This document shows positions 74-56,554 of a stretch of 64,000 nucleotides of DNA, piece after piece. A program made the position numbers and the translations under genes. The notes beneath the pieces are model-generated. The model saw only the letters and a list, made by a program, of their open reading frames with translations, was not told the origin of the DNA and searched no databases. Source of the stretch: Chelatococcus asaccharovorans (GTDB taxonomy: Bacteria > Pseudomonadota > Alphaproteobacteria > Rhizobiales > Beijerinckiaceae); contig NZ_QJJK01000001.1 of the NCBI RefSeq assembly GCF_003201475.1, forward strand, positions 322,501-386,500, given 5' to 3'. Within the stretch, counting starts at the first letter, position 1. Each line of letters opens with the position of its first letter.

Positions 74-178
74 GGGTCCGGCCGTCTTGGCTGCCTGTGG
101 GCTGGTCCGGAGCGTGGCGCGGCGAAAGATCAGAAGCGCGTGCGTATCTCGCGCACCGACGGGAGGCCCGCATCGTGA
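74..178 (+). pseudogene. trbG: trbG 3' remnant
   Basis: The frame ending at TGA 176-178 gives RVRISRTDGRPAS at its C-terminus. This closely matches the end of the intact TrbG at 45840-46799 (VRIVRTDGRPQS). Upstream of about 110 the similarity fades, and the rest of the outer-membrane channel protein is missing. The stop overlaps a GTG start at 175 by four bases (GTGA), the same trbG-trbI coupling seen in the intact operon. This is a relic of a second conjugation module, not a working gene. Confidence 0.6.
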
Positions 179-620
179 GCGAGGAACATCCCGAAACGGA
201 GGAAGGTGCGACGCCTGCCGCACCACGTCCCGCCGAGACGTCCTAGAGCATTTTCGAGCGAAGTGGACACCGGTTCGCGTGAAGAAAATGCGCTAAAACA
301 AAGACATGGAGCATTTTCGCGATTCGGAGAAACGCGAAAATGCTCTAGCAGGAGTCCCGCCCGCTGACCGGTGAGCCGGTCGCGCCGATGCGGCTGCGGC
401 CCGAACCGCCACGCGTGACGCGCCTGTCGCGAAAGGTGCTGATCGCCCTCGGTGTGCTTGCCGGCACCGGTATCGGCGGCACCTTGATCTACGCGCTCCA
501 GACCCGGCACGGCGGCAAGACCACCGAGGAGCTCTATTCGACAGACAACCGGACGACGCCCGACGGCCTCGCCGGCCTGCCGAAAGATTATGCCGGTATC
601 CCGAAGCTCGGTCCGCCGCG
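175..620 (+). pseudogene. trbI: trbI 5' remnant split by a repeat element
   Basis: GTG at 175 has a good ribosome site (GGGAGG, 8 nt upstream). It opens a 23-codon acidic N-terminus (starting SEEHPETEEG) that stops at TAG 244-246, exactly where a 106-bp inverted-repeat element begins. After the element the frame resumes and from 388 reads RLRPEPPRVTRLSRK, a transmembrane stretch and IYALQTR. This mirrors the intact TrbI at 44692-45843 (RLRAEAPRVTRLSRK, IYALQTR). Similarity ends near 620, so at least two thirds of the roughly 380-residue VirB10-like protein is gone. Removing about 105 bases would restore one continuous frame, so the element probably inserted into a once-intact trbI. Confidence 0.72.
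243..348. repeat. 106-bp MITE-like palindromic element
   Basis: The element starts with CTAGAGCATTTTCG (243-256) and ends with the exact reverse complement CGAAAATGCTCTAG (335-348). The interior contains the sequence accggttcgcgtgaagaaaa. Elements with this kind of sequence recur in Rhizobiales genomes; that is from memory and not checked here. It carries no ORF. It lies inside the trbI remnant and creates its premature stop. Confidence 0.7.
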
Positions 621-730
621 GCCGCGAAGAAGGCCGCAGAGGCGCCAGCTTAGCGAGAGCCAATCCGGCTTGGATTGCCCGGTGGATCCAAAAACAGCAA
701 ATCAGGAAGGGAGGGAATGACTAAAGTCAT

Positions 731-807
731 TGGCGCGCCGGGGAAGATTCGAACTCCCGACCCCCAGATTCGTAGTCTGGTGCTCTATCCAGCTGAGCTA
801 CCGGCGC
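731..807 (-). tRNA. tRNA-Arg(ACG)
   Basis: Read on the minus strand, the acceptor stem GCGCCGG (807-801) pairs with CCGGCGC (741-735). The D arm is AGCTCAGCTGGATAGAGC. The anticodon loop CTACGAA lies between CCAGA and TCTGG and gives anticodon ACG. The T arm contains GTTCGAATC, and CCA is encoded at 733-731. The 77-nt cloverleaf is complete. Its 3' end faces the trbG/trbI relic, the usual position for an island integrated at a tRNA. Confidence 0.95.
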
Positions 808-14356: not shown

Positions 14357-14573
14357 CAATCAACTCCAACTATGCGCTCCGAATGAAATATCCGGGGCTT
14401 CCGTTATTTAAAACGTCAATTCTATGATTTAGTTCCACTTTCCATCATGAAGTATCCAAACGATCCGCGATCAAGGCGCCATTTGGCAGGATCGTGGGCC
14501 GTCCGGCTATGGCCAACCCCGCCGACGCCCGCGCGTCCATTGACAGCGTGTCTGCAAACGCCCATGCTCGTCA
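14357..14573. other. Divergent intergenic region upstream of the thiC leader
   Basis: This stretch lies between the divergent PRC-barrel gene and the TPP riboswitch and must hold both promoters. It is AT-richer than its surroundings near 14370-14450. No operator-like repeat stands out, and no gene is supported. Confidence 0.4.
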
Positions 14574-14678
14574 TCTGTTCCGAGGGGGGCCCCGTGAGGG
14601 GGCTGAGATTCCGCCGGCTCGCCATGAGCACCGCGGTGACCCTTAGGACCTGATCCGGGTCATGCCGGCGAAGGGACG
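14574..14678 (+). promoter_or_regulatory. TPP (THI-box) riboswitch
   Basis: The leader of thiC carries the hallmarks of the thiamine pyrophosphate aptamer: the CTGAGAT segment at 14603-14609 after a G-rich stem, then CCCTTAGGACCTGATCCGGG and TCATGCCGGCGAAGGGA (about 14639-14676). The order and spacing fit the class. It is expected to repress thiC when TPP is abundant. About 240 nt of expression platform separate it from the start codon at 14922, so control could act on translation or by termination. Confidence 0.95.
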
Positions 14679-14840
14679 GAAAAAGGTGCAAAGCTCCTCA
14701 CGATTCCATCAGATCGCTGTCACCCGGATCTCCTCGAACCAGGAGTGCGTCCGCTTGCGGCCCGTTCCGATTCTGTCGAATCGGGATCGGGTTCGATCAA
14801 TTGCGTCGTCTTTACGCGAAACTGCTTTCATTTCGCCTGA

Positions 14841-41243: not shown

Positions 41244-41320
41244 GCGCCCGTAGCTCAGCTGGATAGAGCGTTGCCCTCCGAAGGCAAAGGTCGCACGTTC
41301 GAATCGTGCCGGGCGCGCCA
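41244..41320 (+). tRNA. tRNA-Arg(CCG), attachment locus of the ICE
   Basis: The acceptor GCGCCCG (41244-41250) pairs with CGGGCGC; the D arm is AGCTCAGCTGGATAGAGC; the anticodon loop CTCCGAA lies between TTGCC and GGCAA and gives anticodon CCG. The T arm is CGCACGTTCGAATCGTGCC and CCA is encoded at 41318-41320. The element's recombinase gene ends inside this tRNA on the opposite strand, so the 3' part of the tRNA is probably the left junction of the element. A second copy of the junction was not found in the window. Confidence 0.95.
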
Positions 41321-42949
41321 TTTCAGTACAGAACTATGAACGCCGAACACCGCCGATTTCCCGCTGGAAGCGGCCACGAGCGTTCGCAGCAGTTCTGATT
41401 TCGATCCCATAATGCGAACTTCGTCATCTGCGACCTCGACGCGCTGAGCGAAAGCGCGCAGGTGATCCCGCCGATAGCCGCCCCCTTCGAGCCTCAGCCC
41501 GTCCCGGGCAGCACCGGAGAATGCGTCGAGCATATCGGGCGTGACAGCCTGATTGCCTGCGCTATCGAGCGTCAACTGAATACGTTCCGCATCGGCTGTG
41601 GCCTGATCCCTGATCGCCTTAAGACCGGCCATACGCTCCTTCAGCACCGAATCATTCAGATCGGCTAATCCGGCTTCGATAGCGTCGTAGAGGCGATTGA
41701 GCCGCTGGTCGGTTTCCGTGATTCGCCGATTGAGTTCTGCGAGTTGTTCGCGGCGGCGCTCGGTGCGGTCTTGGCGACGATCGAGAAGGCCACCGAGGAT
41801 GGTTACAAGGCGCTCCGGCTGGAGGAGCCGTTCCTCCAGATGGCCCGCGATCAGGTCATCCAGCTTGTCCATCGGGATCGTGCGCCCTGCGCAGCCTGTC
41901 TTGCCCTGCCGAGCCTTGGTCGAGCAGGTGTAGTAGCGATACGTCGCGCCTGCGCTCCCCCGCCCAGTGCGCAGCGTCATGGCCCCGCCGCACTTGGCGC
42001 AGAAGCAGATGCCCGTGAGCAAGGTCGGTCCGCTGGTGACGCGAGCCGGTACCAGATTGGGATTGCGGGATTTCAGCTTGGATTGCACCGTGTCGAAGAT
42101 GTCGCGGTCGATGAGCGGCGGCACTGCCATGATCGCAACCTCGCTCTCGGGTTTTTTCTCCCGATCCTTGTGCGAGCGCGTATTGAACCTGTGCTCGCCT
42201 ATGTAGGTCGTGCGGGTCAGGATCGCATGGATTTGCGCGAGGCCCCAGCGTCCGCCGTCGCGGGTGAAGATGCGGCGCTCGTTGAGATAGCAGGTGATCG
42301 CCTTGACACCGAGCGGGCCGGTCTTGCCGTCGCCGTCAAGGAAGAGCCGATAGATCAGCCGCACCGTGTCGGCGTGCAGCGGATCGACCTCCAGCTTCTT
42401 CTTGGTCTTCGATCCGCGCTGTTCGGCTGCGACGATGCGGTAGCCGATGGGCGGTAGCGCGCCATTCCAGAAGCCCTGTCTGGCGTTCTCATTCATGGCG
42501 CGCAGGACGTGCTTGGCGTTCTCCTTCGACTGGTACTCGTCGAAGAGAGCCATGATCTGGCGCATCATGACGTGCATGGGATCGTCGCCCATCTCCTGCG
42601 TGATGGAGACGAGCTTGACGCCATTCTTGGCGAGCTTGCGAACGTAGAATTCCAGCTCGAAGTGATCGCGGAAAAAGCGACTGAACGAGTGAACCACGAC
42701 GACATCGAACGGCGCGGGCTTCGATGTGCCGGCTTCGATCATGCGCTGGAATTCAGGGCGGCGGTCGTTGGTCGCGGACGCGCCGGCTTCCACGAAGGTA
42801 TCGACAAGCTGATAGCCGCGCGTGGCGCAATAGGTTTCGCCCTGCTTACGCTGGTCGGGAATCGACACGTCATGTTCGGCCTGACGGACCGTAGAGACGC
42901 GCAGATAGAGCGCGGCGCGTTGGGCGACATGGGAACTTTGAAGGTTCAT
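41255..42949 (-). CDS. Large serine recombinase (ICE integrase)
   Basis: A 564-residue site-specific recombinase. The resolvase domain starts ALYLRVSTVRQAE (nucleophile Ser about 19) and includes VVVVHSFSRFFRDHFELEFY. A recombinase domain follows (PPIGYRIV, LAQIHAILTRTTYIGEHRF), then a zinc ribbon (CFCAKCGGAM ... YYTCSTKARQGKTGC) and a coiled coil (about 400-465). The last 21 codons (WRARHDSNVRPLPSEGNALSS) are antisense to tRNA-Arg(CCG), and the stop comes from the tRNA D stem. ATG 42949 has a GGAGG site and overlaps the upstream HTH gene by four bases. Confidence 0.93.
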   Translation of the reverse strand: MNLQSSHVAQRAALYLRVSTVRQAEHDVSIPDQRKQGETYCATRGYQLVDTFVEAGASATNDRRPEFQRMIEAGTSKPAPFDVVVVHSFSRFFRDHFELEFYVRKLAKNGVKLVSITQEMGDDPMHVMMRQIMALFDEYQSKENAKHVLRAMNENARQGFWNGALPPIGYRIVAAEQRGSKTKKKLEVDPLHADTVRLIYRLFLDGDGKTGPLGVKAITCYLNERRIFTRDGGRWGLAQIHAILTRTTYIGEHRFNTRSHKDREKKPESEVAIMAVPPLIDRDIFDTVQSKLKSRNPNLVPARVTSGPTLLTGICFCAKCGGAMTLRTGRGSAGATYRYYTCSTKARQGKTGCAGRTIPMDKLDDLIAGHLEERLLQPERLVTILGGLLDRRQDRTERRREQLAELNRRITETDQRLNRLYDAIEAGLADLNDSVLKERMAGLKAIRDQATADAERIQLTLDSAGNQAVTPDMLDAFSGAARDGLRLEGGGYRRDHLRAFAQRVEVADDEVRIMGSKSELLRTLVAASSGKSAVFGVHSSVLKWRARHDSNVRPLPSEGNALSS

Positions 42950-44691: not shown

Positions 44692-45843
44692 TCAACTCCT
44701 ATAAGGTTCGAGCACCAGATCCCGCGTGACGATGACGCGGACCGGGAAGCCGGGCCGGATGGTCAGGGTCGGCGCGACGTTGAGCTGGCGGCGGACGATC
44801 TGCTGGCCGGCATCGTTGATGGTGTCCTGGCCACCGCTGCGGATTGCGCGCAGAAGCCGGTTCTCGTCGTTGACGGCAAGCTCGGCTCCGACGGCCAGCA
44901 GCGTCGAGAGGCCGGCGGCCTTGGCGAGATCCCACCAGTGATAATCGACGCCATCCTCCAGACCCGCATAGCCCTGCGTGTCCGCGCCGGGCTGGCGTTC
45001 GAGCACGATGGTGCGGCCGTTCGGCATGATGAGGCGGTTCCAGACGAGGAGCACGCGGCGCTGTCCGAACTGCACGTTGTTGTCGTACTGGCCGATGATG
45101 CGCGTACCCTGCGGCACGAGCAGGATGCGCCCGGTGGGGCTGTCATAGATCGGCTCCGTCACCTGGGCGGTGATCTGGCCGGGAAGATCGGAGCGGATGC
45201 CGGTGATGAGCGCGGCCGGAATGACGGCTCCTGCTTGAAGTACGAAGGGAGATGCGGGAACCGTGACGCGATCCGACGACGTGGTGCGCCGATCGACGGG
45301 ACCATTGAGGAAGGCCAGTTGCTTGTCCTGCGTCGTCGGTTGGCTGGCCTGTCCGGGCATGTCGAATCCGGCGAGCCCCGGCGTCGACATGCCCGCCGAT
45401 CCTGCCGGCGCGGGCGATCCGCCGCGCGCCTGGAAGAAGACGGTGCTGGTGCGGGCGGCTTCCTCCTCGGCCCGGCGACGCTGTTCGGCTTCGTCGACGC
45501 CCGATGTCGGCACGACCGGCGGCGCAACGGGCTGCCCCGCATTCTGCGCGCTCAGGATCGGGCGGCCGAGATCGCCGGGTAGCGCCGGGCCGAGGATCGG
45601 GCCGGTATAGTCGCGCGGCAATCCAACAAGACCATCGGCAGGCTGGCGGTTCGCCGTCGAATAAAGCTCCTGACCGTCATTGCCCGGCCCGCGGGTCTGG
45701 AGCGCGTAGATCAGCGCCCCGCCGATGCCGACCAGGGCGACGGCAGCGACGCTCGCGAGCATCTTGCGCGACAGGCGCGTGACGCGCGGGGCTTCGGCGC
45801 GCAGGCGCATCGGAGCGGCATTGCTGTTATCGGTTTCGATCAT
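44692..45843 (-). CDS. trbI: Conjugal transfer protein TrbI (VirB10-like)
   Basis: A 383-residue envelope-spanning protein of the mating-pair channel. It has a short cytoplasmic N-terminus (PMRLRAEAPRVTRLSRK), one membrane helix (MLASVAAVALVGIGGALIYAL), a Pro-rich periplasmic linker, and the conserved C-terminal domain (VPQGTRIIGQYDNNVQFGQR, then LIMPNGRTIVLERQPGADTQ, NVAPTLTIRPGFPVRVIV). It overlaps trbG by four bases. A truncated relative lies at 175-620. Confidence 0.96.
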   Translation of the reverse strand: MIETDNSNAAPMRLRAEAPRVTRLSRKMLASVAAVALVGIGGALIYALQTRGPGNDGQELYSTANRQPADGLVGLPRDYTGPILGPALPGDLGRPILSAQNAGQPVAPPVVPTSGVDEAEQRRRAEEEAARTSTVFFQARGGSPAPAGSAGMSTPGLAGFDMPGQASQPTTQDKQLAFLNGPVDRRTTSSDRVTVPASPFVLQAGAVIPAALITGIRSDLPGQITAQVTEPIYDSPTGRILLVPQGTRIIGQYDNNVQFGQRRVLLVWNRLIMPNGRTIVLERQPGADTQGYAGLEDGVDYHWWDLAKAAGLSTLLAVGAELAVNDENRLLRAIRSGGQDTINDAGQQIVRRQLNVAPTLTIRPGFPVRVIVTRDLVLEPYRS

Positions 45844-46799
45844 GATTGCGGCCTCCCGTCGGTGCGAACGATCCTGACGGTCTGCTGGCGGTCGCCGCCG
45901 CCAAGGCGCAGCTCGGCCGCGCCGAACAGGCGATCGACTATCAGGATGTGTTGATAGATGCGGCTGTTGGCGATCTGGGCTTCGCCCCCGGGGCCGATGA
46001 CGAACAGCGGCGGCATCTCGCCCTGCACGATACCGCGCGGGAACTCGACATAGACGCGGCGGCCGTCGTCATAGACGGCGACGGGCTTCCATGGAGGATT
46101 GGTGCTGCCTGTCAGGCTGTAGCGATAGTTGCGCGCTGCGACCACTGGGATAACAGGCGTGGCCGGAAGGGCCTGTCGCCCGCCTCCCGCCGGCTGCGGA
46201 TAGGCCCAGGCGACGGCGGGCATATAGGGCTTCTCGCCGGAGCGCAGCTCTACCATGTAGGTGCGCCGGTCGGTGGTGATGACGAGATTGGTGGCGATGT
46301 CGGCGCGCGACGGCTTCACCAGCACATGCACGCGGCGCGTCACGCCCGATCCGCTCTCGGTATCGCCGATGATCCAACGGGCCGTATCGCCCGCCGCGAT
46401 CGGTCCCGCGCCGGTCAGGCTTTCGCCGGGCTCGAGCGCGATATTGGTGATCTGACCGGGGGCGGCATAGACCTGATAGAGCGCGCCTTCCGACCACGGA
46501 TAGACCTGGATGGCGTTGAAGTAACCTTCGCGGCGCGGCTGCACGCGGGCGGCTGCGTTGGCATTCTCGACACGGCCGGTCGGTGTCGCCGCGGCTGTGC
46601 CGCCGCGCGCGACCGTCCAGGCTGGTGGAATATGCACCGGCTTCGGCCGATCGTCGGTGACGGCGGCGGGAATGGCCGGCAATGGCGGCACGCTGGCGTC
46701 GTAGGAGATTTCCGGGGGGCGGTTGGTGGCGCAGCCGGCGAGCGCTGTCGCGGACAAGAGAACAGCGGCCAATGCGGATTTAGGGAATGCCCGGCTCAT
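45840..46799 (-). CDS. trbG: Conjugal transfer lipoprotein TrbG (VirB9-like)
   Basis: A 319-residue outer-membrane channel component. A lipoprotein-like signal (LAAVLLSATALAGC, lipobox Cys about 23) is followed by a VirB9/CagX domain: IQVYPWSEGALYQVYAAPGQ, TNIALEPGESL, TDRRTYMVEL, VAVYDDGRRVYVEFP and the end VRIVRTDGRPQS. ATG 46799 overlaps the trbF stop. The longer open frame upstream is a shadow of trbF. Confidence 0.95.
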   Translation of the reverse strand: MSRAFPKSALAAVLLSATALAGCATNRPPEISYDASVPPLPAIPAAVTDDRPKPVHIPPAWTVARGGTAAATPTGRVENANAAARVQPRREGYFNAIQVYPWSEGALYQVYAAPGQITNIALEPGESLTGAGPIAAGDTARWIIGDTESGSGVTRRVHVLVKPSRADIATNLVITTDRRTYMVELRSGEKPYMPAVAWAYPQPAGGGRQALPATPVIPVVAARNYRYSLTGSTNPPWKPVAVYDDGRRVYVEFPRGIVQGEMPPLFVIGPGGEAQIANSRIYQHILIVDRLFGAAELRLGGGDRQQTVRIVRTDGRPQS

Positions 46800-47485
46800 T
46801 GGCCCAGCTCCCGCGACCAGTTGATGGCGTTGACGTAGATGCCGAGCGGATTGGCTTTCAGCCGCTCGGCGTCTCGGGGCCGCTGAAGGGCGATGGTCAA
46901 GATTGCCGTCCACCGCTCCGTCGTGGCGAGCTTGCCATCCTCGTAGTGGCGCTCGGTCCAAGCGACGCGAAAGCTGTCGGCCGAGGCGCGGATGACGCTG
47001 GAAACCTCGACGGCGATCTGCTGCTTGCCGACCTTGGCGAAGGGATCGTTGGTGCGGGCATAGTCGTTGAGCGCACCCGCGCCGCGATCGGTCGTCCATT
47101 CGTAGGCGCGAAGCCAGTTCTGGCGGACGATGACCGGATCGGCGGGAATGCTGCGCACCTGCTCGATGAAGCGGGCAAGATGCCATGCGATCTGCGGATC
47201 GGTCGGGCGATAGTCGGCGGTCGCCGGCGCAATGCTTTGTGCCTGGCCGAGATTGTCGACCTGCACCACCCAGGGCACGACGGTCCCGCGCGCCGACTGG
47301 ATGACTAGTGCGGCGGCGAAACCGGCTGACAGGAACAGCGAACCGAAGGCCATGTAGCGCCAGTTCTTGGCTTGGACGCGGGCGGAGCCAATGCGCTCGT
47401 CCCAGACCTGTGCGGCCTTCTGGTATGGCGTCTCGGGTTGTGGGGTCTTGCCGTAATGCGCGGCGGGTCGTCGAAACAGGTTCAT
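46796..47485 (-). CDS. trbF: Conjugal transfer protein TrbF (VirB8-like)
   Basis: A 229-residue bitopic inner-membrane protein: a cytoplasmic head (KTPQPETPYQKAAQVWDERIG), one helix (YMAFGSLFLSAGFAAALVIQ) and a periplasmic NTF2-like domain (VPWVVQVDNLGQAQ ... WTERHYEDGKLATTERWTAI ... NPLGIYVNAINWSREL). It overlaps both trbL and trbG by four bases. Confidence 0.95.
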   Translation of the reverse strand: MNLFRRPAAHYGKTPQPETPYQKAAQVWDERIGSARVQAKNWRYMAFGSLFLSAGFAAALVIQSARGTVVPWVVQVDNLGQAQSIAPATADYRPTDPQIAWHLARFIEQVRSIPADPVIVRQNWLRAYEWTTDRGAGALNDYARTNDPFAKVGKQQIAVEVSSVIRASADSFRVAWTERHYEDGKLATTERWTAILTIALQRPRDAERLKANPLGIYVNAINWSRELGQ

Positions 47486-48834
47486 GAGCGGTCACTTTCA
47501 GAGAGGTTGACGGAAGAGCCGGCGCCGTGGCTGTCGCCGGAGCGGACGGCGTGCGTTGTCGTCTGGACGCCGTGCGAGAGGCGCTGCGAGCGCTGCATCC
47601 GCCTCGCCCAATCGGGTTGCCCCTTGGCGGCCTGGACAGCGGAGCCGTCGCTTGCGGCCTCAGTCGCACCGCCAACGGTCCCCATGGTCGAGGAGCCGCC
47701 GGTGACGCCGAAGCCGCTCTTCACGCCATCGGAGAAGCTGGATTTGACGCTGGCCGCGGCGCGGCGCAGCGGCGACATGGCGGCGTTGCCAGCAGCGCGA
47801 CCGACACCGCCCATGCCCGATGCAACGCCGGACGCGCCGGACTGGCCGAGCGAACCGAGACTGAAGGCGGCCGACGCCGCGCCTGCGGCCGTCGCGCCGC
47901 CGCGCACGGCGGCTGCGCCCGTCGAGAGCGCTGCGGCGCCGCCCTTGGCGGCGAGGCCCGCAGCGCCAGCACCGGCGAGCACCACGCCGCCAGCGGCAAG
48001 GCCCGTGCCGACCGCGGCTCCTGCGCCGAGCTGCGGCCCGCCGGAGACGAGGCCGTTGGCGATGCCGGGGCCGAAGATGCCGAGACCGAGCAGCGACAAG
48101 GCGGCGAGCACGACGGCCATAGCGTCGTCGATGCTCGGTGCTTGGCCGCCGAACACTCGCGTGAACTGGCTGAACAGCGTCGAGCCGATGCCGATGATGA
48201 CGGCCAGCACCAGAACCTTGATGCCGGAGGAAATCACGTTGCCAAGCACGCGCTCGGCCATGAAGGCAGTCTTGCCGAACAGGCCGAACGGGATCAGCAC
48301 GAAGCCGGCCAGCGTGGACAGCTTGAACTCGATCAGGGTGACGAAGAGCTGGATCGCCAGGATGAAGAAGGCGAGGATGACCAGCGCCCAGGCGAAGAGC
48401 AGGCACGCGATCTGGATGAAGTTCTCGAAGAAGGCGACCCAGCCCATCAGGTGGGAGATTGATTCGAGCAGCGGCCGTGCGGCGTCGAGGCCGGTCTGCG
48501 CGACCTTGCCAGGACGCATCAGCTCGGCGGTCGAGAAGCCCGTGCCGCTTGCCTTGAGGCCAAGGCCGGCGAAGCTCTCGAAGACGATCTTGGCGAGGTT
48601 GCTCCAGTTGCCGATGAGATAGGCGAAGACGCCAACGAACAGCGTCTTCTTGACGAGGCGCGCGATGATGTCGTCATCGGCCGCCCAGGACCAGAAGAGT
48701 GCGGCGAGCGTCACGTCGATGACGATCAGGGTGGTTGCGATGAAGCCGACCTCGCCGCCGAGAAGGCCGAATCCGCTGTCGATGTATTTGGTGAATACGC
48801 CGAGGAAGTTGTCGATGACGCCTGCGCCGCCCAT
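47482..48834 (-). CDS. trbL: Conjugal transfer protein TrbL (VirB6-like)
   Basis: A 450-residue polytopic inner-membrane protein. About six helices occupy residues 25-270 (FIATTLIVIDVTLAALFWSW, LVILAFFILAIQLFVTLIEF and others), including the family segment FKLSTLAGFVLIPFGLFGKT. The C-terminal 170 residues are Ala/Gly/Ser-rich and probably cytoplasmic. It begins three bases after trbK. Confidence 0.95.
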   Translation of the reverse strand: MGGAGVIDNFLGVFTKYIDSGFGLLGGEVGFIATTLIVIDVTLAALFWSWAADDDIIARLVKKTLFVGVFAYLIGNWSNLAKIVFESFAGLGLKASGTGFSTAELMRPGKVAQTGLDAARPLLESISHLMGWVAFFENFIQIACLLFAWALVILAFFILAIQLFVTLIEFKLSTLAGFVLIPFGLFGKTAFMAERVLGNVISSGIKVLVLAVIIGIGSTLFSQFTRVFGGQAPSIDDAMAVVLAALSLLGLGIFGPGIANGLVSGGPQLGAGAAVGTGLAAGGVVLAGAGAAGLAAKGGAAALSTGAAAVRGGATAAGAASAAFSLGSLGQSGASGVASGMGGVGRAAGNAAMSPLRRAAASVKSSFSDGVKSGFGVTGGSSTMGTVGGATEAASDGSAVQAAKGQPDWARRMQRSQRLSHGVQTTTHAVRSGDSHGAGSSVNLSESDRS

Positions 48835-48837
48835 GGC

Positions 48838-49116
48838 TCACCGCCCTTCCGGGGCGGCCGGCGCGGGCGCGCGGCCAAGGAAGCGGTCACGGGTCTCGGC
48901 CCATACCGCCATGCAAGCGCTGTCGCTGGCCGCCGCTTGGCCGAGCCACTGGCATCGGCGTTGGCCTTCGCGCAGCGGATCGCGGTCGGGGGAATGAAGG
49001 GCGGCCGGCGAAGATGCCGGCGCGTCCTCCTTGCGGTTCAGTTCGATGACCGTCGCGGTGATGGCGATGGCGACGAACACGATAGCGCCGAGGCGGGCCA
49101 GCATCTTGCCGTCCAT
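48838..49116 (-). CDS. trbK: Putative entry-exclusion protein TrbK-alt
   Basis: A 92-residue protein with an N-terminal membrane helix (MLARLGAIVFVAIAITATVI) and a periplasmic part with two Cys (RRCQWLGQAAASDSACMAVW). It fits the alternative TrbK form encoded between trbJ and trbL in alphaproteobacteria. TrbK proteins reduce redundant transfer between cells with the same element. ATG 49116 has an AAGGAG site. Confidence 0.85.
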   Translation of the reverse strand: MDGKMLARLGAIVFVAIAITATVIELNRKEDAPASSPAALHSPDRDPLREGQRRCQWLGQAAASDSACMAVWAETRDRFLGRAPAPAAPEGR

Positions 49117-49136
49117 GGGAATGCTCCTTCTGGCGG

Positions 49137-49904
49137 CTACTTGCCGGTGTTGAACATCTGGGCGTTTCCGGGCGTGTAGCCCGAGCCCGGCGTCAGGAAG
49201 CGGCGGCGCTGTTCGCGGCCCTGTTCAGCGGCAGCGGCGCGCTCGGCCTCGGTCAGTGCGCTGGCGCGGCCATTGGAGGCGAGCAGCGCGACGAGATCGG
49301 AGAGCTGCTGCGATTGCAGTGCGAGGATCTGATTGCCGGCCTGCGTTGCCTGAAGCGCGCCGGTCGCGCCCTGGCTTTGGCTGACGAGCGCCGACATCTG
49401 CGTGCGGTTGCTGTCGATATTGCCAACGACGCCGGCCTGCACGCGCATGGCGTCCTGCAAGCCGCCGACCGTGTTCTTCCAGCGGTCGCGGGCATTGGCG
49501 ACGAGCTGGGTATCCGACGACGACATGGAAATGTTGCCGTATTTCTGGCTGAACATCTGGTCGATCTGCTGGACGTTGAACGCGATGCCCTGCGCTTGGC
49601 TCAAGAGCTGCTGTGTCTTCTGGACGTTCTGCTGCAAGGTCTGGAGCGCGGAGAACGGCAGGCTTGCGAGATTGCGAGCCTGATTGATGAGCATCTGCGC
49701 TTCGTTCTGGAGCGAGGTGATCTGGTGGGTGATCTGCTCCAGCGTGCGCGCGGCAGTCAGCACGTTTTGGGCGTAGTTACTGGGATCGAACACGATGAGG
49801 GCGTGCGCGGGCGTCACCATCATCGGCGACAGGGCAAGTGGCGTGGCCGCGAGCATGGTCGCGGCGAGCGCGACGGCGCGCGAGCGGAAGGTACGGGTCT
49901 TCAT
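49137..49904 (-). CDS. trbJ: Conjugal transfer protein TrbJ (VirB5-like)
   Basis: A 255-residue periplasmic or pilus-tip protein with a Sec signal peptide (ALAATMLAATPLALSPMMVTPAHA). A long helical region rich in Gln and Asn follows (FDPSNYAQNVLTAARTLEQI, THQITSLQNEAQMLINQARN, LQTLQQNVQKTQQLLSQAQG). It overlaps trbE by four bases. Confidence 0.95.
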   Translation of the reverse strand: MKTRTFRSRAVALAATMLAATPLALSPMMVTPAHALIVFDPSNYAQNVLTAARTLEQITHQITSLQNEAQMLINQARNLASLPFSALQTLQQNVQKTQQLLSQAQGIAFNVQQIDQMFSQKYGNISMSSSDTQLVANARDRWKNTVGGLQDAMRVQAGVVGNIDSNRTQMSALVSQSQGATGALQATQAGNQILALQSQQLSDLVALLASNGRASALTEAERAAAAEQGREQRRRFLTPGSGYTPGNAQMFNTGK

Positions 49905-52345
49905 GATTCAGTCTCCTTTTCGGCTTGGGGGAAGTTCGGGATGAGATCGACGGCCCAGGTCGCGCCGCGGGCGCGCAGCCACGCGGCGAGGAAACCTTCG
50001 CGGCCGTGCTCGGCGACAAGGTTGGCGATCAGGGTCTGGTCGGACTTGGAGGAAGCTGCGCAGAGCGCGAGGCCGACTTCGCTAAGGCCCAGCTCGAATA
50101 GGCGGTTGCCGCGCCGCGACTGGCAGTAATAGTCGCGCTTCGGCGTCGCTCTGGCCAAAATCTCAATCTGGCGGTCGTTCAACCCAAAACGCCTATAGAT
50201 CGCCGTGATCTGCGGCTCGATCGCGCGCTCATTCGGGAGCAGCAGCCGCGTCGGGCAACTTTCGATGATCGCCGGCGCGATGCTCGAATTGTCGATGTCG
50301 GACAGCGACTGTGTGGCGAAGATGACCGATGCGTTCTTTTTCCTGAGCGTCTTCAGCCATTCGCGGACCTGGCCGGCAAAGCCTTCGTCGTCCAGCGCCA
50401 GCCAGCCTTCGTCGATAATGAGCAGCGTCGGCCGCCCGTCGAGCCGGTCACCGATGCGGTGGAAGAGATAGGCCAGCACGGCGGGCGCAGCGCCCGTGCC
50501 GACCAGCCCCTCGATCTCGAACGCCTGCACGTCGGCGGCACCAAGATGTTCGGCCTCGGCGTCGAGCAACCGACCATAAGGACCGCCGACGCAATAGGGC
50601 CGGAGCGCCTGCTTGATGTCGTTGGACTGGAGCAGGACGGCAAAGCCGGTAACGGTGCGCTCCTCGACCGGTGCGGAGGCGAGCGAGGTCAGCGTCGTCC
50701 AGATATGCTCCTTCACCTCGGGCGTGATTGTGATGCCCTCGCGCATCAGGATCGCGACGATCCAGTCGGCAGCCCATGCGCGTTCGTAGGAATCGTGGAT
50801 GCGGGCGAGCGGCTGGAGCGAGACCGAAGCGTCGGAGCCTTCGGTCAGGCCGCCACCGAGATCGTGCCAGTCGCCGCCCATAGCGAGCGCGGCGGCGCGG
50901 ATCGAACCGCCGAAGTCGAACACGAAGACCTGGGACCGCTCGTAGCGCCGAAACTGCAAGGCCATGAGCGCCAGCAGCACGGACTTGCCAGCACCTGTCG
51001 GGCCGACGACAAGCGTGTGGCCGACGTCGCCGACATGAAGGGATAACCGGAACGGGGTCGAGCCTTCGGTCTTGCCGTAAAGCAAGGGGGGCGCACCGAA
51101 ATGCTCGTCCCGTTCCGGCCCCGCCCACACGGCAGAGAGGGGGATCATGTGAGCGAGATTGAGCGTCGAGACCGGCGGCTGGCGGACATTGGCGTAGGCA
51201 TGTCCGGGGAGCGAGCCGAGCCAGGCATCGACGGCGTTGACGGTTTCGATCATGGCCGTGAAGTCGCGGCCCTGAATGACCTTCTCGACCAGCCGTAGCT
51301 TCTCGTCGGCAAGACGCGGATCGGCGTCCCAGACCGTGATCGTGGCCGTGACATAGGCCATGCCGGCGACATCCTGCCCAAGCTCCTGCAAGGCCATGTC
51401 GGCATCGGCCGCCTTGTTGGACGCATCGGTGTCGACGAGGGCCGACGCCTCGTTGGTCAGGACTTCCTTAAGGATCGCGGCGATGGACTTACGCTTGGCG
51501 AACCACTGGCGGCGGATTTTGGTGAGGAGCTTGGTCGCGTCGGTCTTGTCGAGCAGGATCGCGCGCGTGCTCCAGCGATACGGGAAAGCGAGCCGGTTGA
51601 GATCGTCGAGCAGGCCGGGCGTCGTCGCGGTCGGAAAGCCGATGATGGTGAGGATGCGCAGGTGCTCGCTGCCAAGGCGCGGTTCGAGCCCGCCGGTCAG
51701 CGGCTGGTCGGCGAGAAGCTCATCGAGATAGATCGGCGTCTCGGGGACGCGGACGCGGTGCCGGTTGGTCGAGACGGTCGAGTGCAGATAGGTCAGCGTC
51801 TCGCTGTCATCGAGCCAGTCGCATTCGGGCATGAAGCCGTCGAGCAGGGCCAGCACGCGGCCGGTGCGGTCGGTGAAGGTGCGCAGGATTTCTTGGCTGT
51901 CGACGCCGCTGCGCTCGCGGCCCTCGTAGAGCCAGGCCTCAGTGCGGGCGGCTTCCTCGGCCGGCGGCAGATAGAGGAAGGTCAGATAATAGCCTGACAC
52001 GAAATGCGCGCCGGCTTCCTCGAAATCGGCCTTGCGCTCGGCGTCGACCAGGCCGGACGCCGGATCGGGAAGCACGCTGTCGGGATAGGTCGCAGCCTCG
52101 TGGCGCTGTGCCTCGACGAAGATCGACCAGCCGGAGCCGAGACGGCGGAAGGCGTTGTTGATGCGGCCGGCGACGGCGACCAGCTCGGCGGCGACGGCAC
52201 TGTCGAGATCGGGACCGCGAAAGCGCGCGGTGCGCTGGAAGCTGCCGTCCTTGTTGAGCACGACGCCTTCGGCGGCGAGCGCGACCCACGGCAGATAGTC
52301 GGCAAGGCGGCTGGCGGAGCGGCGATACTCGGCAAGATTCATCAT
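49901..52345 (-). CDS. trbE: Conjugal transfer ATPase TrbE (VirB4-like)
   Basis: An 814-residue ATPase that energises the type IV secretion channel. The N-terminus NLAEYRRSASRLADYLPW is followed by a CagE/TrbE-type domain, Walker A VVGPTGAGKSVLLALM (about residue 460) and Walker B PTLLIIDEGWLALDDEG, with VIFATQSLSDI behind it. ATG 52345 has GGAGG seven bases upstream. The open frame extends to 52504 but is trbD shadow. Confidence 0.96.
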   Translation of the reverse strand: MMNLAEYRRSASRLADYLPWVALAAEGVVLNKDGSFQRTARFRGPDLDSAVAAELVAVAGRINNAFRRLGSGWSIFVEAQRHEAATYPDSVLPDPASGLVDAERKADFEEAGAHFVSGYYLTFLYLPPAEEAARTEAWLYEGRERSGVDSQEILRTFTDRTGRVLALLDGFMPECDWLDDSETLTYLHSTVSTNRHRVRVPETPIYLDELLADQPLTGGLEPRLGSEHLRILTIIGFPTATTPGLLDDLNRLAFPYRWSTRAILLDKTDATKLLTKIRRQWFAKRKSIAAILKEVLTNEASALVDTDASNKAADADMALQELGQDVAGMAYVTATITVWDADPRLADEKLRLVEKVIQGRDFTAMIETVNAVDAWLGSLPGHAYANVRQPPVSTLNLAHMIPLSAVWAGPERDEHFGAPPLLYGKTEGSTPFRLSLHVGDVGHTLVVGPTGAGKSVLLALMALQFRRYERSQVFVFDFGGSIRAAALAMGGDWHDLGGGLTEGSDASVSLQPLARIHDSYERAWAADWIVAILMREGITITPEVKEHIWTTLTSLASAPVEERTVTGFAVLLQSNDIKQALRPYCVGGPYGRLLDAEAEHLGAADVQAFEIEGLVGTGAAPAVLAYLFHRIGDRLDGRPTLLIIDEGWLALDDEGFAGQVREWLKTLRKKNASVIFATQSLSDIDNSSIAPAIIESCPTRLLLPNERAIEPQITAIYRRFGLNDRQIEILARATPKRDYYCQSRRGNRLFELGLSEVGLALCAASSKSDQTLIANLVAEHGREGFLAAWLRARGATWAVDLIPNFPQAEKETES

Positions 52346-52358
52346 GGTTGCGCCTCCC

Positions 52359-52637
52359 TCAAACTGACAGGTGGCCGGGGATACGCAGATGCCTGCGCCC
52401 GACCTCGACAAAGAGCGGATCGCGCTTGGCTGCCCAGACCGCCGCGAAATGGCCGACGGCCCAGATAGCCAAGCCGACCAGCCAGAGGCGCAGGCCGAGG
52501 CCAACGGCCCCGGCCAGCGTCCCGTTGAGGATCGCGATGGAGCGCGGCGCGCCGCCGAGCAGGATGTGCTCGGTCAGCGCGCGGTGGACCGGCACGGTGA
52601 ATCCCGGCACGTCCAGTTGCTCGAACGCGACCGCCAT
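52359..52637 (-). CDS. trbD: Conjugal transfer protein TrbD (VirB3-like)
   Basis: A 92-residue inner-membrane protein: VPGFTVPVHRALTEHILLGG, a hydrophobic span LAGAVGLGLRLWLVGLAIWA, then AAKRDPLFVEVGRRHLRIPG. The ATG shares its A with the trbC stop (TGATG). The complete, typical length for the family. Confidence 0.93.
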   Translation of the reverse strand: MAVAFEQLDVPGFTVPVHRALTEHILLGGAPRSIAILNGTLAGAVGLGLRLWLVGLAIWAVGHFAAVWAAKRDPLFVEVGRRHLRIPGHLSV

Positions 52638-52969
52638 CAGACGAGCGCCCCGCCGCCGAACGAGAAGAACGACAGGAAGAAGCTCGACGCCGCGAAGGCG
52701 ATCGACAGGCCGAAGACGATCTGGATCAGCTTGCGGAAGCCGCCCGATGTGTCGCCGAAGGCGAGCGCCAGGCCGGTCGCGATGATGATGATGACCGCGA
52801 TGATCTTGGCGACCGGGCCTTCGATCGACTGGAGGATTTTCTGGAGCGGCGCTTCCCACGGCATGGAGGAGCCGGAGGCATGGGCGGCCGGGACTAGGAC
52901 GAGATTGACGTAGGCGAAGGTGGCGGCGGTCGCGATCGTGCGACGAATGCGCATGGTGGTGCGGATCAT
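52637..52969 (-). CDS. trbC: Conjugal transfer pilin TrbC (VirB2-like)
   Basis: A 110-residue prepilin with a long signal (TIATAATFAYVNLVLVPAAHA) and two hydrophobic helices (VAKIIAVIIIIATGLALAFG; FGLSIAFAASSFFLSFF) around the GDTSGGFRKL turn. In RP4 the mature TrbC is cyclised by TraF; no TraF is seen in this window. It overlaps trbB by four bases. Confidence 0.93.
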   Translation of the reverse strand: MIRTTMRIRRTIATAATFAYVNLVLVPAAHASGSSMPWEAPLQKILQSIEGPVAKIIAVIIIIATGLALAFGDTSGGFRKLIQIVFGLSIAFAASSFFLSFFSFGGGALV

Positions 52970-53949
52970 TCTGGTTCTCCTGTGCTGGTGGGGATGGCTT
53001 GGGTGACGCGGTAGTCGCCGTCCGACCCCAGCCCCTCGACGCGGGCGAGTTCGGCGAGCCGGCGCGCGGAACCGCGGCCGGAGAGGACGGCCACGAGGTC
53101 GATCGTCTCGGCAATCAGCGCGCGCGGGACAGTCACGACGGCTTCCTGAATGAGCTGTTCGAGCCGGCGTAGCGCGCCGATGCCGGTCCCGGCGTGGATG
53201 GTGCCGATGCCGCCCGGATGGCCGGTGCCCCAGGCTTTGAGGAGGTCGAGGGCTTCAGCGCCGCGCACCTCGCCGATGGGGATGCGGTCGGGACGCAGGC
53301 GCAGCGAGGACCGCACCAGATCGGAGAGCGTGGCGATGCCATCCTTGGTCCGCATGGCGACGAGGTTGGGCGCGGCGCATTGCAGCTCGCGCGTGTCCTC
53401 GATGATGACGACGCGATCGGCGCTCTTGGCGACCTCGGCCAGGAGCGCGTTGGTCAGCGTGGTCTTGCCGGTGGAGGTGCCGCCCGCGACGAGGATGTTG
53501 GCGCGGGCGGCGACGGCTTCGCGCAACGTCGCGGCCTGGTCCGCCGACATGATCCCGGTGGCGACATAATCGTCGAGCGTGAAGACGGCGACGGCGGGCT
53601 TGCGGATCGCGAAGGCCGGCGCGGCGACGACCGGGGGAAGAAGCCCCTCGAACCGCTCCCCCGTCTCGGGCAGCTCGGCCGAGACGCGAGGGCTTCGGGC
53701 GTGAACCTCCGCGCCGACATGGTGCGCGACCAGGCGCACGATGCGCTCGCCATCGGCGGGCGACATAATCTCGCCCGTATCGGCCAGTCCTTCGGAAAGC
53801 CGGTCGATCCAGATGCGCCCGTCGGGGTTCAGCATCACCTCGACGACGGCTGGGTCTTCGAGAAAGCGCGCAATGGCGGGACCGAGCGCGGTGCGCAACA
53901 TGCGCGCGCCGCGCTGGATCGCCTCCGGTTTCTGATGTGAAGAAGTCAT
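52966..53949 (-). CDS. trbB: Conjugal transfer ATPase TrbB (VirB11-like)
   Basis: A 327-residue hexameric ATPase. An N-terminal domain ([20 protein letters not shown]) precedes Walker [17 protein letters not shown], the Asp box [11 protein letters not shown], Walker B-like [20 protein letters not shown] and the His box [13 protein letters not shown] 53949 was chosen; the open frame's first codon is TTG at 53967. It is first in the trb gene run. Confidence 0.96.
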
Positions 53950-54090
53950 GCTGTCCCCAAAATCCAAGGGGACGCAGCAGACAGTTCCCCGATCGGGGAT
54001 GATTAAAAGAGCCTGAAATCGGGTCGCTTCAACAAGTATCTAGGCCCGTGCGGCGGTCGGCGGCGATCAGCGGTGAATGGGATGGATCGG

Positions 54091-54555
54091 TTATTCCGGC
54101 GAGCCGCCGTTCATCTGCGGCGCGGTGCCTTCACCGCCCGGTCGAACCGAGTCGAGATCACGCGAAAGTTCTTTCAGGATCCTGTCTCCGGTCGCCAGTC
54201 GCTTGCCGAGCGTCTGCATGAAGCCCTCGAACCGCTCAAGGCCCTTGGCGCGGCCCGAAGCTTGCGCGGCCTCGGGCAATGCCGGGGTGAAGGTGAGCCA
54301 ATAGCGGACGAACAGCGAGACGGCCTCGCCGAGTACGGCGAGATCCTCGTCGAGCGTGTCGATCTGGCGGCCGAGCTTGTCGAGGCGGCGCGACATGGCC
54401 GCCTCCAGTTTCTCGGTCGTATCGCCGGACAGGAATGACGCCATGGCTGCTTCGACGATGGCGGATTTCGAGATGTTCCGGCGCAGCGCCAGCGCCTCGA
54501 CCTGTTTGAGCAAAGCCGGGTCGAAATAGACATTCATGCGGGTGCGGGTCGTCAT
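54091..54555 (-). CDS. CopG/ribbon-helix-helix relaxosome accessory protein
   Basis: A 154-residue protein with an N-terminal ribbon-helix-helix domain (TTRTRMNVYFDPALLKQVEA, RRNISKSAIVEAAMASFL) and a helical C-terminal part with an aromatic segment (LGEAVSLFVRYWLTFTPALP). In this ICE family a CopG-like gene always lies between traG and trbB. A role in oriT binding or operon control is inferred. It starts 10 bases past the traG stop. Confidence 0.85.
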   Translation of the reverse strand: MTTRTRMNVYFDPALLKQVEALALRRNISKSAIVEAAMASFLSGDTTEKLEAAMSRRLDKLGRQIDTLDEDLAVLGEAVSLFVRYWLTFTPALPEAAQASGRAKGLERFEGFMQTLGKRLATGDRILKELSRDLDSVRPGGEGTAPQMNGGSPE

Positions 54556-54565
54556 GGCGCGGTCC

Positions 54566-56554
54566 TCAAAGCTCTATGCCGTCGCCGGGGTCGAGCGAGG
54601 CTTGCCGTGCGACCGTCCGCATACGGCTGCGCAGGGCGCTGGCCTTGGCGGCGTCGACATCGGGTTCGTCGTCCAGAAGCTCGAACTCCTGGGCGGGCGA
54701 CGGCGGCAGGGGTAAGATTTCCTCATGCTCTGGCAATTCCGGCTCGCGGCGGATGCCGGCATTGGCGGGATCGCCGCCGTCGGCGCCGACGCTGCCCGCG
54801 CCGGTCTGGCCCGCCGCCGCTACGACGCGGCCGGACCAATCATCCGTTGCGATGGCATTGACGGCGGAAGCCGCCGCCAGCTCGGGCGGCGTGATGATGC
54901 GCTCCTGCAAGCGCGCGTCCTCGAAATACCGGGCCTTGGCGGCGCGGATCGGCGGCGTGCCCGCGACCATGACGATTTCCTCGGAGGGTGGGAGCTGCAT
55001 GATCTCGCCTGGCGTCAGTAGCGGGCGCGCCGTCTCCTGCCGCGAGACCATCAGGTGGCCGAGCCAGGGCGACAGACGATGACCGGCATAGTTGGTGGAA
55101 TCGCGCAGCTCGGTCGCGGTGCCGAGCGCATCCGACACACGCTTGGCGGTGCGCTCGTCATTGGTCGCGAAGCTGACGCGCACATGGCAATTGTCGAGGA
55201 TAGCGTTGTTCGGCCCATAGGCGCGCTCGATCTGATTGAGCGACTGCGCGATCAGGAAGCCCTTGAGGCCATAGCCCGCCATGAAGGCCAAGGCGCTCTC
55301 GAAGAAGTCGAGCCGCCCCAGCGCCGGAAACTCGTCGAGCATCAACAGCAGGCGATGACGCTTGCCCACGGTCTTCAATTCTTCGGTCAGCCGCCGTCCG
55401 ATCTGATTGAGGATCAACCGGATGAGCGGCTTGGTACGATTGATGTCGGAAGGCGGCACGACAAGGTAGAGGCTGACCGACTGGCGGCATCCGACCAGAT
55501 CGGCAATGCGCCAGTCGCAGCGCGCGGTGACGCGCGCGACGACGGGATCGCGATAGAGGCCCAAGAATGACATGGCGGTGCTGAGCACGCCGGACCGCTC
55601 GTTATCGCTCTTGTTGAGCAGTTCCCGTGCCGACGACGCGATAACGGGATGAACGCCAGCTTCTCCCAGATGCGGCGTGTCCATCATCGCGCGCAGCGTC
55701 GCTTCGACGGGGCGGCGGGGATCGGAAAGGAAATTGGCGACGCCAGCCAGCGTCTTGTCGGGCTCAGCGTAAAGGACATGCAGGATCGCGCCGACCAGAA
55801 GCGAATGGCTGGTCTTTTCCCAGTGGTTGCGCTTCTCGAGACTGCCTTCAGGATCGACCAGAATGTCGGCAATGTTCTGGACGTCGCGGACTTCCCATTC
55901 GCCTTGCCGGACCTCTAGCAACGGATTGTATGCCGAGGATTTCGCATTGGTCGGGTCGAACAGCAGCACGCGGCCGTGCTTAGCGCGGAAGCCCGCCGTC
56001 AGCGTCCAGTTCTCACCCTTGATGTCGTGGACGATGCAGCTTCCCGGCCAGGTCAGCAGCGTTGGCACGACGAGGCCGACGCCTTTGCCGCTTCGGGTCG
56101 GTGCAAAGCACAACACATGCTCTGGGCCGTCATGGCGCAGATAGTTTTGGCTGTATCGGCCGAGCACGACGCCATCAGGACCGAGCAGGCCGGCGGCATG
56201 GATTTCTTTGTCGTCGGCCCATCGCGCGGAACCGTAGGTCGCGACGTTGTGCACCTCGCGGGCGCGCATGATCGACATCAGGATCGCGACGGCGATGGCA
56301 ATGATACCGCCCGACGCCGCAATGATACCGCCTTCGACGAAGATTGTCGGCGCGTAGGCGTCGAACGCATACCACCACCAGAAGAAGGTCGGAGGATAGT
56401 AGATGGGCCAGCCGGCCAACTCGAACCATGGACTACCGAGCTGGCCTTGAAAGCCGAGCCGCCATGCGGTCCATTGCGTCGCCGCCCAGATCGTCACCAT
56501 CACGATGGCAACGACGGCGGCGATCTGACCCCAAAGAATTCGGCCTCCACGCAT
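54566..56554 (-). CDS. traG: Type IV coupling protein TraG (VirD4-like)
   Basis: A 662-residue membrane ATPase that links the relaxosome to the mating channel. It has two N-terminal helices (about 8-30 and 70-95), Walker A FAPTRSGKGVGLVVP, HDIKGENW, Walker B RLLLMLDEFPALGRL, and FLIAQSLNQIERAYGPN. An acidic, Pro-rich tail ends the protein. GGAG five bases before ATG 56554 supports the start. Confidence 0.96.
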   Translation of the reverse strand: MRGGRILWGQIAAVVAIVMVTIWAATQWTAWRLGFQGQLGSPWFELAGWPIYYPPTFFWWWYAFDAYAPTIFVEGGIIAASGGIIAIAVAILMSIMRAREVHNVATYGSARWADDKEIHAAGLLGPDGVVLGRYSQNYLRHDGPEHVLCFAPTRSGKGVGLVVPTLLTWPGSCIVHDIKGENWTLTAGFRAKHGRVLLFDPTNAKSSAYNPLLEVRQGEWEVRDVQNIADILVDPEGSLEKRNHWEKTSHSLLVGAILHVLYAEPDKTLAGVANFLSDPRRPVEATLRAMMDTPHLGEAGVHPVIASSARELLNKSDNERSGVLSTAMSFLGLYRDPVVARVTARCDWRIADLVGCRQSVSLYLVVPPSDINRTKPLIRLILNQIGRRLTEELKTVGKRHRLLLMLDEFPALGRLDFFESALAFMAGYGLKGFLIAQSLNQIERAYGPNNAILDNCHVRVSFATNDERTAKRVSDALGTATELRDSTNYAGHRLSPWLGHLMVSRQETARPLLTPGEIMQLPPSEEIVMVAGTPPIRAAKARYFEDARLQERIITPPELAAASAVNAIATDDWSGRVVAAAGQTGAGSVGADGGDPANAGIRREPELPEHEEILPLPPSPAQEFELLDDEPDVDAAKASALRSRMRTVARQASLDPGDGIEL

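Follow-up and report, generated by a model that had tools for sequence, protein, structure and literature searches.

Probable debris of a trb operon at an island edge beside tRNA-Arg(ACG), and a serine integrase family found at several tRNA genes

The 64,000-nucleotide stretch of Chelatococcus asaccharovorans DNA analysed here (the window, G000:C1:322501-386500) carries a broken trbG-trbI junction beside tRNA-Arg(ACG) and an intact ICE at tRNA-Arg(CCG). Taken as a whole, the broken junction is probably best explained as trb debris of an extinct element, at the edge of an island that ends in a copy of a monooxygenase 3' end, with the ICE being a separate lineage. Positions 116-619 would be what is left of a mating-pore (trb) operon of the RP4/Tn4371 type, carried by an integrated element that is now extinct; Tn4371 is itself a relative. 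Two shards survive, still arranged and oriented as in the operon: one holds the leader of trbB and ~70 of its codons, the other the end of trbG and the start of trbI. The ~8 kb between them is missing, and the 3.2 kb now found there encodes a peptide-binding protein and an amidohydrolase. The shards are the last pieces before the right edge of an accessory island of ~36 kb, whose entry, or last rearrangement, may have occurred at the monooxygenase 3' end instead of at the tRNA, and they are presumably now without function. The mirrored ICE at tRNA-Arg(CCG) would belong to a separate trb lineage, with a serine-integrase family whose members lie at tRNA genes for Arg, Ser, and Glu, at their CCA end.

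The initial annotation had recognised the end of TrbG, the GTGA overlap, and the start of TrbI to the left of tRNA-Arg(ACG), with the trb genes aimed at the 3' end of the tRNA (position 731). Both points were confirmed (Table 1). Read directly from the sequence, the trbG stop TGA (176-178) overlaps the trbI start GTG (175-177) through GTGA. The DNA at positions 116-198 and 357-619 is homologous to the intact trbG-trbI of genome G008 (locus L111). TrbI has 421 codons in L111, and the relic preserves ~116 of them, the first ~28% of trbI, along with ~20 residues of TrbG. The trbI homology to L111 stops at 619, short of the tRNA. The frame at 388-720 has TrbI matches in 40 of the 149 family genomes, its own included; these are far beyond chance (best E-value outside the relic 3.5e-36) and fall mostly on residues 1 to ~80-100. 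The 80-residue TrbI piece alone gave no Pfam match, and the Pfam TrbI model describes the C-terminal part of the protein, which is gone from the relic. An internal stop is present in only one of the 69 other TrbI matches (G026:C34, 49% over 50 residues). The unbroken TrbI piece matches 220 of 72,556 plasmid records (best 73.4%), which indicates that this type of TrbI is widespread.

Table 1. Coordinates of the relic, its surroundings, and the intact ICE in the window
Feature	Positions	Strand	Basis
3' end of trbG, ~20 codons, stop at 176-178	116..178	+	DNA alignment to L111 begins at 116; GTGA overlap
5' part of trbI, interrupted by a repeat, truncated at ~619	175..619	+	Homology to TrbI/L111
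106-bp palindromic repeat within trbI, at least 40 near-identical copies	243..348		Copy scoring, inverted ends
Copy of the core FAD monooxygenase 3' end; exact 22-bp core at 628-649	615..649	+	Alignment and genome-wide repeat count
81 bp from island edge to tRNA	650..730		Weak, conflicting similarities; no serine-integrase tail
tRNA-Arg(ACG), intact	731..807	-	tRNA call
tRNA-Arg(CCG), 3' end overlapped by the ICE integrase gene	41244..41320	+	tRNA call, integrase frame
Large serine integrase of the intact ICE (Resolvase, Recombinase, Zn-ribbon domains)	41255..42949	-	Domain search
Transfer genes of the intact ICE, trbI to traG	44692..56554	-	Gene comparison

The relic trbI is split by a 106-bp palindromic repeat with perfect inverted ends of 14 nt. 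In G000, 40 near-full copies that are 96-100% identical were scored (40 scored out of 117 candidates), and this high identity suggests that the insertion into trbI was probably recent. The repeat may represent a young MITE-like family that is possibly still moving. A further copy lies inside the same island (C1:298567-298671). A different palindromic repeat is found to the right of the tRNA at ~1018-1129, with ~40 copies in G000 that are 72-89% identical.

An extension to the left in search of trb, traG, or integrase fragments, as proposed in the initial annotation, yielded a 5' fragment of trbB and no match to the traG or integrase of the ICE in the island. The ICE TrbB protein matches the fragment at 74% over 73 residues (E 5e-30). 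Fragment and leader occupy G000:C1:319103-319434, 3.1-3.4 kb left of window base 1; the homology to L111 begins ~120 bases before the ATG, at C1:319103, and stops at C1:319434. When 11 ICE proteins were compared with C1:243501-426400 (E 1e-3), the trbB and trbI shards were the only two trb matches besides the ICE itself, and the two lie on the same strand in the order of the operon. The distance between corresponding points is ~8.05 kb in L111 versus 3.2 kb in G000, where a family 5 solute-binding (peptide-binding) protein and an M20 amidohydrolase are encoded, and the shards can thus be read as the two ends of one operon whose middle has been replaced. The relic therefore consists of homologous trb genes in operon order (trbB, trbG end, trbI start) that lack the ~8 kb between trbB and trbG, and with this loss of the complete trbB-trbI set it is no working operon. 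Additionally, a simple gene-calling script gave 48 genes for the ICE and the flank to its right, and these were used as queries against the island (E 1e-5); just the two trb shards and cross-matches among ABC transporters were returned, with no match to an integrase, relaxase, or traG. Queries from a second trb locus of G000 (L047) match the same two shards. Three more genes of the TrbI family are present in G000 (C1:66456, C21:67444, and C19:81031), of which C1:66456 lies within a complete-looking trb operon. Relic and L111 share a conserved non-coding leader ahead of trbB, part of which is also found in the ICE (L006:15603-15725; L111:170 onward). It is a possible candidate for a regulatory or transfer-origin site.

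Both shards are located in a ~36 kb island between a core FAD monooxygenase gene and tRNA-Arg(ACG) in G000. In G003, one of three other genomes of the genus, the end of the same monooxygenase gene lies ~340 bp from the tRNA. The collinearity of G000 with G003 stops at this gene end (C1 ~287.2 kb), and G000 thus has ~36 kb that G003 does not. The empty site in G003 marks an island, not the base of its entry. At the right edge there is a copy of the monooxygenase 3' end (36 aligned columns, with 0 of 500 shuffles as good), and its exact 22-bp core is repeated at C1:287178-287199, which gives one copy per island edge; these are the two copies present in the 7.25 Mb genome at up to 2 mismatches. 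We read the copy at 615-649 as the right boundary of the island. It is without the last codons of the monooxygenase gene, its 22-bp core ends ~80 bp before the tRNA, and it overlaps the end of trbI by 5 bp (615-619). The island is a patchwork of genes read as transport and catabolic, and its GC content (0.611, compared with 0.625 and 0.656 in the flanks) is not diagnostic. No second copy of the 3' part of the tRNA was found in the ~80 kb to the left (searched in C1:243501-426400), a result to be read in light of the fact that insertion by a serine integrase would leave just a short core. The proposal that the relic itself had inserted at the tRNA is not supported, given the monooxygenase-tail repeat at the edge (628-649), the missing tRNA duplicate on the left, and the missing serine-integrase tail. 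The relic was likewise rejected as a serine-integrase ICE of the window-ICE family because no clear integrase tail was found at tRNA-Arg(ACG).

Occupied and empty forms of the tRNA-Arg(ACG) site, a comparison suggested by the initial annotation, were both found among the four genomes of the genus (G000-G003). The site holds the island in G000, a prophage of ~17 kb in G001 (tail tape measure and integrase identified by PHROGs), and, in G002, other genes that fill the ~15 kb from a GST-like gene up to the tRNA; it is empty in G003. In the G001 prophage the tyrosine integrase adjoins the tRNA, and 45 bp of the tRNA are repeated exactly at the other end. The ~15-kb stretch of G002 has no trb, serine-integrase, or G001-integrase match. 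The 81 bp between the island edge and the tRNA do not align with the spacer of G003 (326 of 500 shuffles as good) and thus may not be native core; nor do they align with G002 (423 of 500 as good), and they weakly resemble the core spacer of G001 just after the GST gene (6 of 500 as good). On the other side of the tRNA, the minus strand at 1168-1803 carries a gene that NCBIfam assigns, with a score above its curated cut-off, to the type B chloramphenicol acetyltransferases (CatB), a widespread type; the stretch also has matches next to this tRNA in G001 and G003. A TPP riboswitch at 14573-14693 is no part of the finding.

The relic TrbI, used as query, is 63% identical to the TrbI of the window ICE (65% over 77 residues in the search with ICE proteins) versus 76% and 77% to its nearest relatives, L111 and L121, which bears out the earlier statement that it is too diverged to be a recent duplicate. 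In a tree built from 79 columns of 56 TrbI N-termini, with many of its forks unresolved, the relic groups with L111 and L121 with weak support (80/51) and falls outside a 23-row group (93/87) that includes the window ICE. AU tests gave p 0.044 when the relic was forced inside the window-ICE clade and p 0.09 when it was forced inside the 23-row clade; the constraint groups in these and the further AU test below were chosen after the tree was seen, and the p values are guides only. A TrbI tree with the relic had been called for, and it places the relic, albeit weakly, away from the window-ICE clade. We infer that the relic probably belongs to a trb lineage separate from that of the window ICE. 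The initial annotation had named two cases that would speak against its own reading. The same broken trbG/trbI fragment was seen nowhere else in the 149 family genomes, and an internal duplication of the window ICE is ruled out by the TrbI identity of 63% and, weakly, by the tree.

The reading frame of the window ICE integrase extends into tRNA-Arg(CCG), and the ICE trb genes mirror the geometry of the relic on the opposite strand, as originally described. Relatives of this integrase are present in 43 of the 149 family genomes at E up to 1e-60. The integrase match overlaps a tRNA 3' end in 24 of the 30 loci fetched, while the remaining 6, some of them near contig ends, show no tRNA. The overlapped tRNAs are Arg(CCG) (9), Arg(ACG) (5), Ser(CGA) (3), Ser(GGA) (3), Glu(TTC) (2), and Glu(CTC) (2), a tally that leaves out a second, non-overlapping tRNA-Ser in L139. 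Five additional overlaps were fetched, four at Arg(ACG) and one at Arg(TCG) (G097, ARAGORN). Overlap with tRNA-Arg(ACG) was thus found in nine of the 149 genomes (G059, G118, G060, G076, G140, G031, G032, G138, and G125). On a tree of 30 integrases, from which L095 (144 residues) was left out, the 24 labelled rows require a minimum of 12 changes when labelled by the six anticodons and of 4 when labelled by amino acid (Arg, Ser, Glu), counts made without a shuffled control. The integrase that G088 has at Arg(CCG) shares 95.7% identity with the one that G060 has at Arg(ACG), and identity between the two loci is 87.8% over 5.2 kb.

A tRNA 3' end faces trbI within 5 kb in 10 of 55 trb loci, these being the window ICE and 54 of the 68 TrbI matches other than the relic and that ICE. 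The tRNA is Arg(CCG) in the window ICE, L120, L122, L262, L263, L281, and L283, Arg(ACG) in L123, and Ser(CGA) in L112 and L119. L280 has Arg(CCG) at 10 kb, and the other 44 of the 55 show no tRNA downstream in the stretch examined, several stretches stopping early at contig ends. In L120 (G085) and L122 (G017) the trb modules face tRNA-Arg(CCG) without an integrase; a 22-residue match to the integrase end persists there, and a small toxin-antitoxin-like pair and a LysR-like gene intervene before the tRNA. In G003 (L294) the ICE family has left a relic at the other site, in the form of a decayed serine-integrase tail next to tRNA-Arg(CCG).

The far end of the window ICE at tRNA-Arg(CCG) was not found, as the G003 flank matched dispersed sequences of the genus. 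The insertion site of the family could be approached through a 52% integrase relative at tRNA-Glu(CTC) of G003, where ~69 kb is inserted relative to G002 and G001. This stretch has no match to the other ten ICE proteins (E 1e-8) and may not be an ICE. The native flank is followed by TGGCGC at the far end of the insert and the integrase end by TGGCGC at the tRNA; this core comes from one empty-site comparison, in which the G000 flank did not align and was left out. TGGCGC is the antisense of the GCGCCA end of the tRNA, and all 24 of the 24 integrase tails abut TGGCG. A short core at the CCA end would allow one integrase to fit several tRNA genes. Judging from these sequence comparisons, we lean slightly towards a reading in which the window ICE belongs to a family of large serine integrases that use the tRNA CCA end through a core as short as TGGCG(C) and for which the host tRNA gene supplies the final codons and the stop. 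Members of the family would hence move among tRNA genes for Arg(ACG), Arg(CCG), Arg(TCG), Ser, and Glu at up to 96% integrase identity, and the relic would be an older, unrelated occupancy beside one such interchangeable site.

Three other origins of the relic were considered. An ICE inserted in tRNA-Arg(ACG) and equipped with a serine integrase similar to the one of the window ICE is an improbable parent; in this case the integrase and far end would have been deleted later and the monooxygenase-tail copy produced by a subsequent rearrangement. The nine genomes with an integrase of this family at tRNA-Arg(ACG) speak for such a parent, as does G060, where trbG, trbI, an HTH protein, a serine integrase (82% to that of the window), and tRNA-Arg(ACG) show the geometry that the initial annotation described; however, a search for serine-integrase tails in 641-730 gave a best score of 14, equalled by 8 of 100 shuffles, versus 29.5 (0 of 100) for the decayed tail at tRNA-Arg(CCG) of G003, which means that the relic site has no clear trace of the window-ICE integrase. 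Forcing the relic next to the G060 TrbI gave an AU p of 0.036. We give an equally small chance to a parent with a tyrosine integrase at tRNA-Arg(ACG), like the G001 prophage; the last codons of the parent's integrase, at ~690-720, would be all that is left of that gene. Positions 697-735 resemble the end of the G001 tyrosine-integrase gene bordering the same tRNA (0 of 500 shuffles as good), and in G001, G049, and G054 an integrase of this family, whole or in part, lies next to tRNA-Arg(ACG). This likeness could mean that an integrase was lost at the tRNA and is a weak lead, but the match spans ~39 bp, some of which are tRNA and tRNA-side bases also present in G002, there is no second tRNA copy on the left, and the island-edge repeat lies inside; a search of G000 for a tyrosine integrase of the G001 type gave no match at E 1e-20.

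The least probable origin is that illegitimate recombination delivered the shards bit by bit and that no element ever stood at this site for them to mark. The patchwork of transport and catabolic genes and the 5-bp overlap at the joint of trbI and the monooxygenase tail would fit, but the shards are two ends of one operon, in order and 4 kb apart. Several observations count against the explanation that we prefer, debris of an extinct element at the island edge: positions 650-730 do not align with the G003 spacer, 697-735 resemble an integrase end, the right repeat copy is incomplete, and the AU test for the 23-row clade gave p 0.09. The observations of the initial annotation were confirmed and its interpretation is partly supported. 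The 40-kb segment is bracketed by two tRNA-Arg genes as stated, and this follows from the tRNA genes facing outward, the same pair being ~43-47 kb apart in G001, G002, and G003. The idea of mirrored, related elements at different Arg isoacceptors holds for the family of the intact ICE (Arg(CCG)/Arg(ACG)) and not demonstrably for the relic.

As a further case of a conjugation module that has decayed in a variable region next to a tRNA gene, the relic is ordinary debris. In the available text of PMC8627217, trb-type ICEs (e.g., ICEMlSym-R7A and relatives of Tn4371) have the gene order trbBCDEJLFGI and occupy several tRNA genes, tRNA-Arg included, with tyrosine recombinases in 73 of 79 elements. 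The relic has the same trb order as the elements described there, but with pieces of trbB, trbG, and trbI only, and no integrase or att site was found. The G001 prophage shares the tRNA-Arg(ACG) site with the relic, but has a tyrosine integrase and a 45-bp tRNA repeat and no trb genes. The main value of the relic is as a pointer to the intact ICE family, in which little-changed serine integrases are found at different tRNA genes, which is less usual. Our literature search found no account of a serine-integrase family alternating among Arg, Ser, and Glu tRNA genes; most subscription papers lay outside its scope and novelty is unproven. In M. abscessus, the accessible part of PMC10654092 reports tRNA or tmRNA overlap at 16 of 23 tyrosine-integrase sites and six more sites of the serine type. 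Insertion of serine recombinases into tRNA genes is called rare in the portion of PMC3218068 at hand, with phiRSM1 (tRNA-Ser) and mycobacterial AICEs (tRNA-Leu) as examples, and vB_PamS_Pami6 is the sole Paracoccus phage with a serine recombinase and a known site (tRNA-Met) in the corresponding list of PMC6536676. The window ICE resembles these elements, as far as those texts describe them, in having a serine integrase at a tRNA gene. Unlike them, its family, to which the relic may not belong, is found at Arg, Ser, and Glu tRNA genes with near relatives at different ones, and such near-identical serine integrases at different tRNA genes bear on how integrases change target.
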